Assembly: GCA_000372785.1 (NCBI GenBank)
Contig: KB889758.1
Coordinates: forward strand, 93,015 to 139,034
Origin: a gamma proteobacterium SCGC AB-629-P17
GTDB taxonomy: Bacteria; Pseudomonadota; Gammaproteobacteria; PS1; Pseudothioglobaceae
DNA: 46,020 bases
Reading direction: 5' to 3'
Shown here: piece by piece, positions 1 through 5,629 of the stretch
Layout of the letters: each line of letters begins with the position of its first letter
How positions within the stretch are numbered: the first letter of the stretch is position 1
The notes under the pieces: model-generated
The model's database searches: none
Seen by the model: the letters and a program-made list of their open reading frames with translations, nothing else
Told to the model about the DNA's origin: nothing
Translations under genes and position numbers: made by a program

Positions 1-360
1 TTTGAGGCTCAATTAGAAGCAGACCTTGCTTCTGATGCTTTGGAGAAAGAAATAGCTGAGTTTGAGGCTCAATTAGAAGCAGACCTTGCTTCTGATGCTT
101 TGGAGAAAGAAATAGCTGAGTTTGAGGCTCAATTAGAAGCAGACCTTGCTTCTGATGCTTTGGAGAAAGAAATAGCTGAGTTTGAGGCTCAATTAGAAGC
201 AGACCTTGCTTCTGATGCTTTGGAGAAAGAAATAGCTGAGTTTGAGGCTCAATTAGAAGCAGACCTTGCTTCTGATGCTTTGGAGAAAGAAATAGCTGAG
301 TTTGAGGCTCAATTAGAAGCAGACCTTGCTTCTGATGCTTTGGAGAAAGAAATAGCTGAG
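1..360 (+). repeat. Six exact 60-bp tandem repeats
   Basis: Six consecutive 60-base units starting TTTGAGGCTCAATTAGAAGC are identical at the nucleotide level and in frame with the coding sequence, each giving 20 residues. A seventh unit diverges from about 369. The array begins exactly at base 1, so the true copy number is unknown and may have been collapsed by assembly. Lack of any synonymous difference between copies indicates recent expansion or homogenisation. Confidence 0.97.
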
Positions 361-783
361 TTTGAGGCCGAACTGGAAGCAGACCTTAAAGCCCAGAGAC
401 TTGCTGAATTCCTAGCAAAACTGGAAGCAGAGAAAGCCGCTTCCGCTAAAGCAACTGCAATTTATCAAGCCAGAGTGCAACAAGATCAGATTATCAAGGA
501 CAATCAAGCTAAACGAGCGGCTAAACTTGCTGCAAAACAAGCCGCTGCCGAAGCCGCTGCTGCAGAGCTAGCTGCCTTTAAAGCTGAACTGTCTCGTTAT
601 GCAGAATGCAAAGCTGCACTAAGTTTATCTGATAGTAATATTGCACTTTTTAAAACAGCATTGGAAGCTGGTAATTTGTTTAACGTAGGTCCTCAAATTA
701 CTGCTGGAACAGAATTTACAGCAAACAGATGGGATGAATATGCAAGCTGTATTGGTGCATTGGGTTATAAAAATCCCTTTTAA
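1..783 (+). CDS. Ala/Glu-rich tandem-repeat protein, 5' end missing
   Basis: The reading frame is open from base 1, so the true start and any signal peptide lie outside the window; 260 residues are visible. The first 120 residues are six identical copies of a 20-residue unit (it begins FEAQLEADLA), followed by a degenerate seventh copy and an Ala/Lys/Glu-rich stretch predicted to be helical. The last ~60 residues form a different, more globular block with LSDSNIALFK, NVGPQ and GTEFTANRWD, bracketed by two cysteines (AEC and SCIG). The same block ends the next gene, so the two are paralogues. I recognise no named family. The helical stalk plus compact C-terminal domain would suit a surface or periplasmic spacer protein, but that is inference. 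A TTG inside the repeat at 40 is not a credible start. Confidence 0.8.
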   Translation, partial: FEAQLEADLASDALEKEIAEFEAQLEADLASDALEKEIAEFEAQLEADLASDALEKEIAEFEAQLEADLASDALEKEIAEFEAQLEADLASDALEKEIAEFEAQLEADLASDALEKEIAEFEAELEADLKAQRLAEFLAKLEAEKAASAKATAIYQARVQQDQIIKDNQAKRAAKLAAKQAAAEAAAAELAAFKAELSRYAECKAALSLSDSNIALFKTALEAGNLFNVGPQITAGTEFTANRWDEYASCIGALGYKNPF

Positions 784-862
784 GGTAGAGGATTACTAAT
801 ATTGTTAATAAGTCTTCCTTCATATCGAATGGAAGCGTAGAAAAACTTAACAAATAATAAAG

Positions 863-888
863 CCCAGAGCTTGCTCTGGGTTTTTTTT
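863..888 (+). terminator. Rho-independent terminator after the first repeat-protein gene
   Basis: An 8-bp perfect stem (CCCAGAGC / GCTCTGGG) with a 2-base TT spacer at its centre is followed by eight T. It lies 80 bases after the stop of the upstream gene and just before the next gene, so the two paralogues are probably separate transcripts. Confidence 0.9.
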
Positions 889-903
889 ATTTAAAATGAA
901 TTT

Positions 904-2124
904 ATGAAAAATTATTTAGTTCATAATTTAATCAAATTTCTTTTTATATTCTTTATATCGATCACCATTCATGCTGGCGGCAATGAAAGCGACTCACTAT
1001 TGATGGAATCATTGGATGAGGTATTGATAGAAGAATATAAACCTTGTTCTGATCAATCAGATATTAATTCATTTGAAGTTAGCACAATATCTTCATTAAT
1101 GATTATATCTGAGGGCGCCTTTTTTACTGAAGGAGAAATTATTACCAGCTCTAGTGGAGTACAAGCAATTGTAGATTCTTATGATGTTGAAACGCAAAAA
1201 TTAACTTATCATCAAGATGCTAGTACGGGTTTTAAAACTTTTTTATTAAATGAAACAATCGAAGGGTCTTCTTCTGGAATTGCCATCGTTAAAGAGTTTA
1301 TTATTGATTTATCCATCCCTTGTTCCGAATTAATAGTTTCTATTGAAGAAGAACCTCAACAGATGGTGTTTTCGCCAAAAAAATCAGCTGAAGAAGCCAA
1401 ACTAGCTGCCGAGCTTGCTGCTGCAGAAATGATGGCTGAAATTGAAGAAGAGCTGGCTAGACAAGCTGCACTTGAAGCCTTCCAGAAGAAGCTTGCCGAA
1501 GAGAGAGCCGCTGCCGCTGCATCTACTGCAGCATACCAATCCAAGCTTGCTTACGATGCTATGGTCGAAGAACTTATGGAAGCTTTAGCGATAGAGCAAG
1601 AAATTGCAGCTTTTGAAGCCAAACTAGCTGCCGAGCTTGCTGCTGCAGAAATGATGGCTGAAATTGAAGAAGAGCTGGCTAGACAAGCTGCACTTGAAGC
1701 CTTCCAGAAGAAGCTTGCCGAAGAGAGAGCCGCTGCCGCTGCATCTACTGCTGCTTATCAGGCCAAAGTTGCTTATGATGCCAGGGTTGCCAAAATTAAG
1801 GAAGATTTAGTAAGACAACTCGAAGAAGTTGTAGAACAGGATGATTTCAAATCTCATCTTGTAGAAGAACTTATAGCACAAGCCACTGCTAAATTAGAAG
1901 AAGAAAAATTTATTGGAGCAATATCTGGAGAAATAGTAACCGTTGCAATTCATGAATTTTGTAAAGATACTTTGAATTTGTCAGACAGTAATATTGCACT
2001 GTTTAAAAAAGCATTAGCAGGTGGTTATTTGGGTAATGTAGGTCCACAGGTTAAGCACGGAACGGAATTCACTGCAAATAGATGGGATAAATATATTACC
2101 TGTGTTAGCTCATTAGGCAATTAA
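904..2124 (+). CDS. Secreted Ala/Glu-rich repeat protein, paralogue of the preceding gene
   Basis: 406 residues. The N-terminus has a basic start and hydrophobic core (FLFIFFISI) ending near HAGG, a plausible Sec signal peptide. Residues ~70-130 are Gly/Ser/Thr-rich and probably beta (TEGEIITSSSG, TGFKTFLLNE). Residues ~164-310 are helical and contain two near-identical blocks of about 46 residues, 74 residues apart, with EEELARQAALEAFQKKLAEE in both. The C-terminal ~50 residues repeat the LSDSNIALFK / NVGPQ / GTEFTANRWD domain of the previous gene, with flanking cysteines (EFC, TCV) that could form a disulfide. Function is unknown to me; an envelope or exported structural protein is the most I would infer. 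An Ala/Ser-rich open frame on the opposite strand inside the repeats is a shadow. Confidence 0.85.
   Translation: MKNYLVHNLIKFLFIFFISITIHAGGNESDSLLMESLDEVLIEEYKPCSDQSDINSFEVSTISSLMIISEGAFFTEGEIITSSSGVQAIVDSYDVETQKLTYHQDASTGFKTFLLNETIEGSSSGIAIVKEFIIDLSIPCSELIVSIEEEPQQMVFSPKKSAEEAKLAAELAAAEMMAEIEEELARQAALEAFQKKLAEERAAAAASTAAYQSKLAYDAMVEELMEALAIEQEIAAFEAKLAAELAAAEMMAEIEEELARQAALEAFQKKLAEERAAAAASTAAYQAKVAYDARVAKIKEDLVRQLEEVVEQDDFKSHLVEELIAQATAKLEEEKFIGAISGEIVTVAIHEFCKDTLNLSDSNIALFKKALAGGYLGNVGPQVKHGTEFTANRWDKYITCVSSLGN
1393..1751 (+). repeat. 137-bp perfect direct repeat, 222-bp period
   Basis: Bases 1393-1529 and 1615-1751 are identical over 137 bases, beginning GAAGCCAAACTAGCTGCCGA. The 222-base period is a multiple of three, so the duplication is in frame and lengthens the helical part of the encoded protein by 74 residues. 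Confidence 0.95.
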
Positions 2125-2147: not shown

Positions 2148-2705
2148 CTATATTTCTAGTAATGAGTTTTCCTTATCACTGAGAGATTTATCAATCAAAC
2201 CAATGTGTTGATCAGTAATTTTTTGAATATTTTCTTCAGCTCGATGGGTTTCATCCTCTGATATTTCTTTTTCTTTAAGTAGTTCCCTATAATCTGATAT
2301 AGCATCTCTACGAATGTTTCTAACAGCTACCCTTGCATGTTCTGCCTCATCTCGAACTACGCGTACTAATTCTTTTCGTCGCTCTTCTGTGAGTGGTGGA
2401 AGGGGAATACGAATAACTTGACCCATCGAGTTTGGATTTAGTCCCAAATCAGAAGTCATTACCGCCTTTTCAATTGGCCCAACCATATCTTTTTCCCATG
2501 GTGTAACTTTTAGTGTTCTTGAGTCTTCTGTAGTTATATTTGATACTTGAGAGATGGGTACTATGGTGCCATAATATTCAACGTGAATTTGTTCAAGAAG
2601 TGAAGGGTGTGCTCTACCAGCTCGAATTTTGCTAAAGTCACCCTCCAGTGAAGCTAGGGTCTTATTCATACGGTCATTAGCATCATTATGAATTTCATTG
2701 ATCAT
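2148..2705 (-). CDS. frr: Ribosome recycling factor
   Basis: 185 residues, the usual length. RRF works with EF-G to split post-termination 70S ribosomes in the cytoplasm. Family hallmarks include [15 protein letters not shown] near the N-terminus, [16 protein letters not shown] in the middle, [15 protein letters not shown] and a C-terminal long helix rich in Glu/Lys. The usual partners rpsB-tsf-pyrH are absent here; the gene stands alone, divergent from uvrA, with its 3' end facing the repeat-protein gene 23 bases away. The assignment is secure. Confidence 0.97.
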
Positions 2706-2773
2706 TGTTAATCTCCATTATGTACTCATTAATCTAGCAACTAACAAAATAGTGATTTTACACAAGGCGTGCG

Positions 2774-2779
2774 TATAAT
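2774..2779 (+). promoter_or_regulatory. Candidate -10 element for uvrA
   Basis: A perfect TATAAT lies 33 bases upstream of the uvrA start in the divergent frr-uvrA gap. No good -35 hexamer sits at 16-18 bp, and I see no LexA-type CTGT-N8-ACAG box in the gap. Confidence 0.4.
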
Positions 2780-2812
2780 GAACCCTTTGTCCCTCATAAA
2801 ATAACTGAGTTT

Positions 2813-5629
2813 ATGGATGCAATAAGCATACGTGGCGCCAAAGTTCATAATTTAAAGAATATTGATGTCAATCTTCCTAGAAATAAACTTGTAGTCATTA
2901 CGGGACTTTCTGGGTCCGGCAAATCATCATTAGCTTTTGATACAATCTATGCTGAAGGCCAACGTCGTTATGTCGAGTCATTGTCAGCTTATGCCAGACA
3001 ATTTCTATCGTTAATGGAAAAACCAGATGTCGATCATATAGAAGGACTATCTCCAGCTATTTCGATTGAGCAAAAGGCTACTTCTCATAATCCTCGATCC
3101 ACTGTTGGAACTATCACAGAAATCTACGATTATTTAAGATTACTATTTGCTAGGGTAGGGACGCCAAGATGTCCAGAACACAAAACTGCTTTAGAGTCTC
3201 AAACTATTTCACAGATGGTGGATGAGATACTCATCTTGCCGGAAGGTGACAAAATTATGATTTTAGCTCCTATAGTGAAAAATCGTAAAGGTGGTCATCA
3301 AAAGTTGTTGCAAGAGCTTTCACATCAAGGCTTTCTGAGAGCAAGAGTTGATAGCCAAATTGTATATCTTGAGGAATTAACTGAACTTGATGGCAACAAG
3401 CGTCACACAATAGAGATTGTTGTTGACCGATTAAAGGTTCGCCAAGACATTACTTCAAGATTGTCAGAGTCTTTAGAAACCGCACTAAATATGAGTTCAG
3501 GTATTGTAAAAGTGATTCCCATGGATACTGATTCTGTCTGGGAAGAGATGACTTTTTCTGCAAAATTTTCCTGTGTACATTGCGGCTACTCTTTAGATGA
3601 ATTAGAGCCTAGACTCTTTTCATTTAATAATCCTGTAGGTGCATGTGGAACATGCGATGGTCTGGGAGTTAAAGATGTTTTTGATGAAGAAAAAGTGGTA
3701 GCTAATCCTGAACTTAGTATAGAGGATGGTGCAATATATGGTTGGAGTAAAAATAATGCTTACTTTTATCAAATGTTAGGATTAGTAGGTGACTTTTACA
3801 ATTTTAGTATTAAGCAACCTTTTAATGAATTAACAGATGAACATAAAAATATCATTCTTTATGGTAGTGGAGAACAATCAATAGATTTTTCCAAAATAAA
3901 AGGTAGGAGGGGTTGGTCAAACAAGAAAAAGCCTTTTGAGGGAATCATTCCAAGGATGATTCGTCGCTATGAGGAAAGCGATATACGGTCTGTTAGAGAA
4001 GACTTATCCAGATATGTTATTAGCAAACCTTGTGCCAGTTGCCATGGTGACAGGCTCAATGAAGCAGCAAGAAATGTATTTATCCAAAATAAGAATCTCT
4101 CAGATTTAACTAGACTTTCAATCAATCAGATATATGATTTTTTTGATTGTATTGAACTTGATGGGAAGCGTGGTCAAATTGCCAGTAAGATTCTCAAAGA
4201 AATCTCACAACGTTTACATTTTTTGATTAATGTCGGACTAGACTATCTTAGCTTGGAGAGAAAAGCCAACACTCTTTCTGGAGGCGAAGCACAACGCATT
4301 CGACTAGCCTCTCAGATTGGCGCTGGTTTAATCGGTGTCTTGTATGTTTTAGATGAGCCTTCCATAGGTCTTCATCAGCGCGATAACCAAAAATTATTAG
4401 ACACACTAACTTATCTAAGGGATTTAGGCAATACAATAATAGTTGTAGAACACGATGAGGAAGCCATTAGGCAAGCTGATTATATTATTGATATAGGTCC
4501 TGGCGCTGGGATTCATGGCGGAGAAATTGTTGCTATTGGGCATCCGGAAGAAGTAATCGCTAGTACCAAGTCTCTAACAGGAGACTATTTAAGTGGCCGC
4601 CAAATAATCAACGTGCCTAATAAAAGAAAACATGCCAATGAATGGTTAAAAATACAAGGTGCAAGCGGAAACAATTTGAAGAATGTTGATTTGGCGATTC
4701 CAGTAGGCTTATTGACTTGTGTCACTGGGGTTTCAGGTTCAGGAAAATCTACCTTAATTAACAACACTCTTCATCAGTTAGCTGCAAAAATTTTGAACCG
4801 TGCTCAAGTTGAGGTAGCTCCATTCAGAGGGTTTGATGGAATGCACTTCTTTGATAAAGTGGTGAACATTGATCAAAGTCCTATTGGTCGCACTCCGAGA
4901 TCTAATCCGGCCACTTATACAGGCGTTTTTAGTTTGATTCGTGATCTATTTTCTCAGACACTTGAATCACGTTCTCGTGGTTATAGATCGGGTCGCTTTA
5001 GCTTTAATGTCAAAGGTGGTCGATGTGAGCCTTGTAAAGGTGATGGCCTTATTAAGGTAGAGATGCATTTTTTGCCCGATATTTATGTTTCTTGTGATGT
5101 TTGTAGTGGTCGTAGATATAACCGTGAAACTCTAGAGATACAATACAAGGGCAAAACTATCGCTGAGATTTTGGAGATGACGGTAGAAGATGCTCTAGAA
5201 TTTTTTCATGCTATACCCAAAATTACAAAAAAACTTCAAACCTTGTTGGATGTTGGATTATCTTACATCACACTTGGGCAGAATGCGACAACATTGTCTG
5301 GTGGAGAGGCTCAGCGCGTGAAACTTTCCAAAGAGCTCTCTAAATCTGATACCGGGCAAACACTATATATTTTGGATGAGCCCACCAGTGGTCTTCACTT
5401 CCATGATATCAAACAACTACTTTTAGTTATTGCTCGACTCAGAGATCGTAATAATACAATTGTTATCATTGAACACAATCTTGATGTCATAAAGACAGCT
5501 GACTGGGTTATAGATCTTGGACCCGAAGGTGGCGATAAAGGTGGTGAAATTATTGCATTTGGAACACCAGAGATGATCTCCCAATCACAAAACTCTTTTA
5601 CTGGAAAATTCCTAAAAAAACACCTTTAA
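2813..5629 (+). CDS. uvrA: Excinuclease ABC subunit A
   Basis: 938 residues, a normal length. UvrA is the dimeric ATPase that finds bulky DNA lesions and loads UvrB in nucleotide excision repair. Two ABC modules are visible: Walker [10 protein letters not shown] at residues 31-39 and GVSGSGKST at ~638, with signatures [16 protein letters not shown] (~488) and [16 protein letters not shown] (~829). Zinc-finger cysteine pairs are present at CVHCGY/CGTCDG, CASCHG and [15 protein letters not shown]. The ATG at 2813 gives the expected [17 protein letters not shown] start. Its stop overlaps the stop of the convergent gene by 4 bp. No SOS operator is obvious upstream. Confidence 0.98.

Follow-up and report, generated by a model that had tools for sequence, protein, structure and literature searches.

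Organization of the gene pair

The window analysed here is a stretch of 46,020 nucleotides from the gammaproteobacterium SCGC AB-629-P17 (C2:93015-139034; the assembly amounts to 1.42 Mb and is 77% complete). It opens on two adjacent genes on the forward strand. Gene 1 (copy 1) is represented by its 3′ part (1..783), a reading frame open at its 5′ end which includes an Ala/Glu-rich stalk and a C-terminal block (598..780). Gene 2 (copy 2; 904..2124) encodes an exported-looking protein of 406 residues. Both proteins end in a block of about 55 residues with the pattern Cys ... GP-x4-GT-x-F-x3-RW-x2-Y-x2-Cys, and these align over 53 residues with 68% identity, in agreement with the original prediction of adjacent paralogues sharing a C-terminus. 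The view that the pair is an oddity amid housekeeping genes was likewise upheld.

The contig runs on upstream of the window. The 5′ end of gene 1, which had been thought missing and in need of long reads, is present there: the gene is cut by the window and starts with a GTG behind GGAGG at L003:12497, 518 bases upstream. The whole gene (L003:12497-13798, forward strand, equivalent to window -518..783) includes a signal peptide (RNQSIKFFTIFVLAFNVFA|GGDDRD, predicted from the sequence), a GGDDRD tag, the stalk and the block. The signal peptide of gene 2 (904..975, forward strand; assigned from the sequence without SignalP) is predicted to be cleaved at ...ITIHA|GGNESD. Since gene 1 has a signal peptide as well as gene 2, both products appear to be exported; the earlier proposal of export for the second protein was reasonable and only incomplete.

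The C-terminal domain

In an alignment of 62 domain sequences, 11 columns never vary (C, L, N, G, P, G, T, F, R, W, C), those of both cysteines included, and both window genes carry the block so defined. A histidine is found three residues before the first cysteine in 60 of the 62 sequences; gene 1 of the window, with a tyrosine, is one of the two exceptions. Conservation begins about 16 residues earlier in most relatives, with the pattern IGxTxSGxxVTxAAHxxC. The conserved unit, which we call the head, is a C-terminal domain of about 70 residues. Only two copies of the block occur in the assembly of the window's own genome (protein match, E 3e-20), and its DNA motif is present twice in the window compared to none in 100 shuffled sequences.

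The block gave no family match in Pfam, NCBIfam, PHROGs or PDB sequences and no credible identity in PADLOC, and a literature search returned no description of a protein bearing it. The AlphaFold2 model of the gene 2 domain (1906..2121, forward strand; 49 sequences, mean pLDDT 82, pTM 0.65) predicts a β-hairpin followed by three helices, with the cysteines in the first and last helix. Comparison of this model with PDB folds yielded nothing at E < 0.001 with Foldseek and no clear match with VIA-align (best Z 2.7), although the absence of a fold match does not prove that the fold is new. The original claim that the block belongs to no named family thus stands for all these libraries. Three matches were set aside. 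PADLOC PDC-M40A (E 8e-5) is located in low-complexity sequence of the stalk and was read as chance, as was a SIR2 match (E 0.005) on a short form of the protein; the NCBIfam antigen I/II match (E 0.01) falls on the stalk, far below the cut-off. As far as could be tested in the libraries and papers searched, the domain family, its N-terminal tag and its family-wide distribution are new; an exported protein with a spacer and a small head is an already known kind of architecture.

The domain of gene 2 is under purifying selection, with dN/dS ratios of 0.08-0.26 where dS < 0.7. For the head of gene 1, ratios of 0.28 and 0.63 were obtained over 62 codons. In a domain tree the Pseudothioglobus copies are separated from the rest (support 93/99) and several copy 1 and copy 2 subgroups are supported; the tree is built on few columns, leaves many forks open and does not date the duplication.

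Distribution and genomic context

A search with the gene 2 block matched 76 of 83 genomes of the bacterial family (the window's included), covering all 11 genera sampled. Carriers include SUP05/Thioglobus/Pseudothioglobus, Ruthia, Vesicomyosocius and the Bathymodiolus symbionts, that is, both free-living and deep-sea symbiotic members. These are widespread marine sulfur oxidisers, mussel and clam symbionts among them, with a poorly known envelope. The match in G012 is only a piece at a contig end. Seven genomes have no match: four (G007, G008, G013, G014) are without both frr and cmoB, and the contig of G071 ends shortly after frr. The other two, G001 and G019, encode at the locus a signal peptide, a tag (AGGDDRDSGPVESLD) and a β-domain of the gene 2 type followed by a different C-terminus; the head has been lost there and is dispensable in these two. 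The sole match outside the family (G137, E 0.018) is a 486-residue membrane-transporter-like reading frame and was taken as chance.

The block is confined to the family in the larger collections searched. Its profile identified only family members among 369 genomes of the class. A DNA pattern for GP-x4-GT-x-F-x3-RW-x2-[YF]-x2-C, which recovers 70 of 72 known loci, matched 66 loci in 84,980 species, and 65 of these are true by HMM (E < 1e-24). None of the 65 was traced outside the family: their titles name the SUP05 cluster, Ca. Thioglobus, Pseudothioglobus, Ruthia, Vesicomyosocius, Ruthturnera, Thiodubiliella and Bathymodiolus symbionts, some read unclassified Gammaproteobacteria, and two odd ones (Thiotrichales NAT80 and Piscirickettsiaceae UWMA-0130) probably correspond to family genomes (G005 and G068). 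The 66th locus, from Labilibaculum, is a chance match whose motif frame is interrupted by a stop codon. A motif whose spacer was shortened by one base matched nothing, and the correct motif had no match in viral contigs, on which ground a viral origin of the block was rejected. The block is no coincidence of a single contig, which would have refuted the original reading: 65 named contigs carry it.

Most loci with enough flanking sequence show the order bioC, a znuA-like gene, cmoB, the block gene, frr, pyrH and uvrA, with the block gene between cmoB and frr and on the other strand from cmoB. The window pair (L003) occupies this same position. In other genera the usual form is one gene of about 125 residues encoding a signal peptide, AGGDDRDxGPVESLD, a short linker and the block (for example L034 in G046, L104 in Ca. 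Ruthia, L120 in Ca. Vesicomyosocius and L105 in the Bathymodiolus heckerae symbiont). This unnamed Thioglobaceae/Pseudothioglobaceae protein is homologous to the window pair, with which it has in common the predicted signal peptide, the GGDDRD tag of gene 1, the block and the cmoB-frr position; it differs as a single gene with a short linker, without a stalk and without the β-domain. The single gene of genus g5 (L052, L071) carries a stalk of medium length, which shows that stalk growth extends beyond the genus of the window. The latter (g1, with Ca. Pseudothioglobus aerophilus among its contigs) usually has two long-stalked genes in tandem. The description of the pair as lineage-specific therefore applies to the long-stalked tandem arrangement and to the genus-specific β-domain, but not to the block itself, which is family-wide and syntenic.

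This comparison indicates that both window genes descend from one small exported protein kept by the whole family between cmoB and frr, and we regard the family, its synteny and its architecture as almost certain. Presence in nearly every genome at one chromosomal spot suggests that the block protein is probably a core part of the family's cell envelope. The gene also persists in complete genomes that measure 1.02-1.18 Mb (G046, G050, G054, G061), which argues against a role limited to open water.

Copies away from the cmoB-frr locus occur in g1 (L054:4650-5198 and L062:1996-2778, extra copies with a divergent block), and second matches were found in other genera (G049, G072). In G009, gene 2 (L053:5141-7056) is broken into two frames inside its repeats, representing a sequencing error or a pseudogene.

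A separate observation concerns pyrH, the UMP kinase gene, which is essential in model bacteria. Most family members carry it in the frr-uvrA interval; it is absent from this position (window 2705-2813) in the subclade of the window (G000, G017, G021, G027, G016). Nor was it found elsewhere in these five assemblies (61-95% complete), where the UMP-CMP kinase family also gave no match over its cut-off; their only matches to the pyrH profile fall on another kinase-like reading frame and are weak, at 34-38 bits where the cut-off is 244.

The N-terminal tag and a second tagged protein

In most full-length members, AGGDDRD comes directly after the signal peptide. Of the window pair, gene 1 has GGDDRD at this position and gene 2 has AGGNESD instead; several relatives of gene 2 retain even less of the tag.

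The tag is shared with a second, exported-looking protein from the same genus (L194:1441-1854; also L172, L175, L177, L187 and L198-L209). It is composed of a signal peptide, AGGDDRDQxLPLNSLN, an acidic linker and a C-terminal membrane helix ending in FFVREK, and is otherwise unrelated to the block family. It was identified in 18 of 28 genus relatives and, in the 12 copies that are fully read, the tag is intact. No copy was found outside the genus or in the window's own, incomplete (77%) assembly. The motif that follows the tag is also alike in the two proteins, GPVESLD in the block family and LPLNSLN in the second protein. From the common tag and this likeness we infer that the mature N-terminus may be a docking element used twice. 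Since gene 2 of the window has only AGGNESD, docking through the tag would not be general for copy 2.

Stalks, repeats and the β-domain

The stalk of gene 1 includes a tandem array of 60 bp (20 residues) units at 1..387 on the forward strand, with 6.4 copies within the window and 6.6 in L003 (98% match). Two N bases lie just upstream of the array, and the window starts right after an N. Both stalks contain a common module, ...EMMAEIEEELARQAALEAFQ(Q/K)KLAEE(K/R)AAAAASTAAYQ..., and the original description of stalks of different build holds for the tandem array added in gene 1 and the β-domain added in gene 2, but not for this shared module. Between strains, spacer length differs by whole modules. 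In gene 2, the Ala/Glu-rich stalk (1387..1830, forward strand) is modelled as a helix of 148 residues, about 22 nm long if straight. The model of the mature protein (six sequences, mean pLDDT 65) places a β-domain (residues 37-110) before this helix and the C-terminal domain, here poorly resolved, after it; a fold search with the whole model against PDB returned nothing at E < 0.001.

About 16 draft assemblies of g1 break in or beside the pair (e.g. G003:C13, G025:C14, G012:C66/C6, G017:C12/C41). The repeats are probably the cause, and such breaks may have hidden these genes so far. Together with the two Ns before the array, the contig ends show that repeats disturb assembly here and could suggest that the pair is itself an artefact of assembly or of chance. 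We give this explanation practically no weight: G006 and G028, each assembled as a single contig, contain the intact pair, as do G020 and G021, and the block is found on the 65 named contigs described above. These data refute an artefact as far as the genes and the block are concerned and leave uncertain only how many copies the 60-bp array has. Further upstream of the window, about 2 kb of N (L003:6671-8731) separate a glutamine-synthetase-like gene from a MOSC-like gene.

The β-domain of gene 2 (1045..1323, forward strand) has two conserved cysteines and was seen in no genus but g1 (in 14 genomes, the window's among them). It resembles modules of phage virions. PHROG 438 (baseplate wedge) matches 10 of 12 members, weakly as a profile match (best E 9e-5), and PHROG 460 (Hc2) matches five of the 12. 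Among viral predicted structures, the model superimposes on a Synechococcus phage tail sheath (2.0 Å over 76 columns) and on other phage structural proteins (about 2 Å over about 75 columns); a direct protein search of phage records reached only E 0.04. The resemblance to virion proteins of T4-like marine myoviruses is limited to this domain: the rest of these proteins is unrelated, and gene 2 has in addition the conserved cysteine pair and a signal peptide. We read the domain as a shared small β-module, perhaps acquired from a marine myovirus, with both homology and direction tentative.

Possible functions

Taken as a whole, the data are best explained by a family-wide exported head protein which was duplicated and extended by stalks in Pseudothioglobus, a reading to which we give an even chance of being correct. 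The protein would be exported to the periplasm or cell surface, where the two invariant cysteines would form a disulfide locking the head. The GGDDRD N-terminus (in peptide form, GGDDRDMGPVESLD) would dock to a common envelope partner, and the length of the spacer would set how far away the head binds its target. A tandem duplication took place in Pseudothioglobus, where the spacer also grew into repeat-built helices of varying length (about 22 nm predicted for gene 2), with copy 2 carrying a β-domain near its N-terminus. Export, disulfide, docking, binding and location are all predictions, and the dock-spacer-head mechanism is a tentative proposal, somewhat short of an even chance. The loss of the head in G001 and G019, the altered tag of gene 2 and its relatives, and the dN/dS ratios of the gene 1 head, no lower than 0.28-0.63, count against it. 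A bolder version, in which the head of unmatched fold, docked by a tag common to a membrane-anchored protein and preserved even in animal symbionts with genomes of about 1 Mb, is a new envelope module that marks one family and forms part of an envelope or division apparatus particular to it, is on present evidence rather doubtful.

An envelope role is plausible by analogy with the reported biology of the clade, in which S-layers, sulfur globules in the periplasm and division without FtsZ have been described (PMC6509183). The S-layer protein of SUP05 is reported as a 34-kDa protein of a hexagonal surface lattice; S-layers are reported for three cultured strains, EF1, PS1 and NP1, and genes for them in both free-living and symbiont SUP05 (PMC6509183). 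It resembles the block protein, itself probably envelope-associated, in its place in the envelope and its wide spread in the same clade. The matching taxonomic spread might indicate an accessory surface protein involved in attaching the S-layer to the outer membrane or peptidoglycan, for which the long spacers would fit the Pseudothioglobus envelope. We consider this unlikely: the long spacer is absent from most members, and no known S-layer-binding domain was found with Pfam and other profile searches. The differences in repeat number and spacer length between strains and the virion-like β-domain could alternatively reflect a surface protein varying rapidly under phage or grazer pressure, with the repeats and β-domain acting as adhesin, decoy or shield. 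This is quite unlikely for a gene whose head is conserved under purifying selection and which is kept in host-restricted symbionts.

Two further possibilities concern the periplasm. The histidine conserved in 60 of 62 heads could, with the two cysteines, bind a metal such as zinc, and a ZnuA-like gene is located two genes away. It lies beyond cmoB and on the opposite strand, however; gene 1 of the window has tyrosine for histidine, and a cysteine pair in an exported protein more usually forms a disulfide, all of which makes a metal binder very unlikely. TolA, of the Tol-Pal system, is alike in its manner of working only, with a long Ala/Glu-rich helix carrying a small C-terminal domain across the periplasm, as the predicted 148-residue helix and small domain of gene 2 might do. 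The N-terminal membrane anchor of TolA is uncleaved and binds TolQR, whereas a signal peptide that is probably cleaved is predicted here. There is no sequence match, no TolA domain appeared among Pfam matches up to E 10, and most of the family has no stalk. A TolA-like device is thus highly improbable.

Whichever function is considered, the family-wide exported head protein offers a clear target for study: it is syntenic, present in nearly all of the family, undetected outside it and has survived genome reduction. An alignment and a fairly confident model of the domain are now available, together with a common N-terminal tag that is open to testing.

The spacer between the two genes (window 859-906) holds a strong intrinsic terminator (859..884, forward strand; z -3.7), kept within the genus, with its stem retained in nine relatives. 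In most relatives TATAAT directly follows the terminator (TAAAAT in the window), only about 6-10 bases 5′ of the gene 2 ATG, a spacing that might point to a separate promoter for gene 2 and a leaderless transcript.
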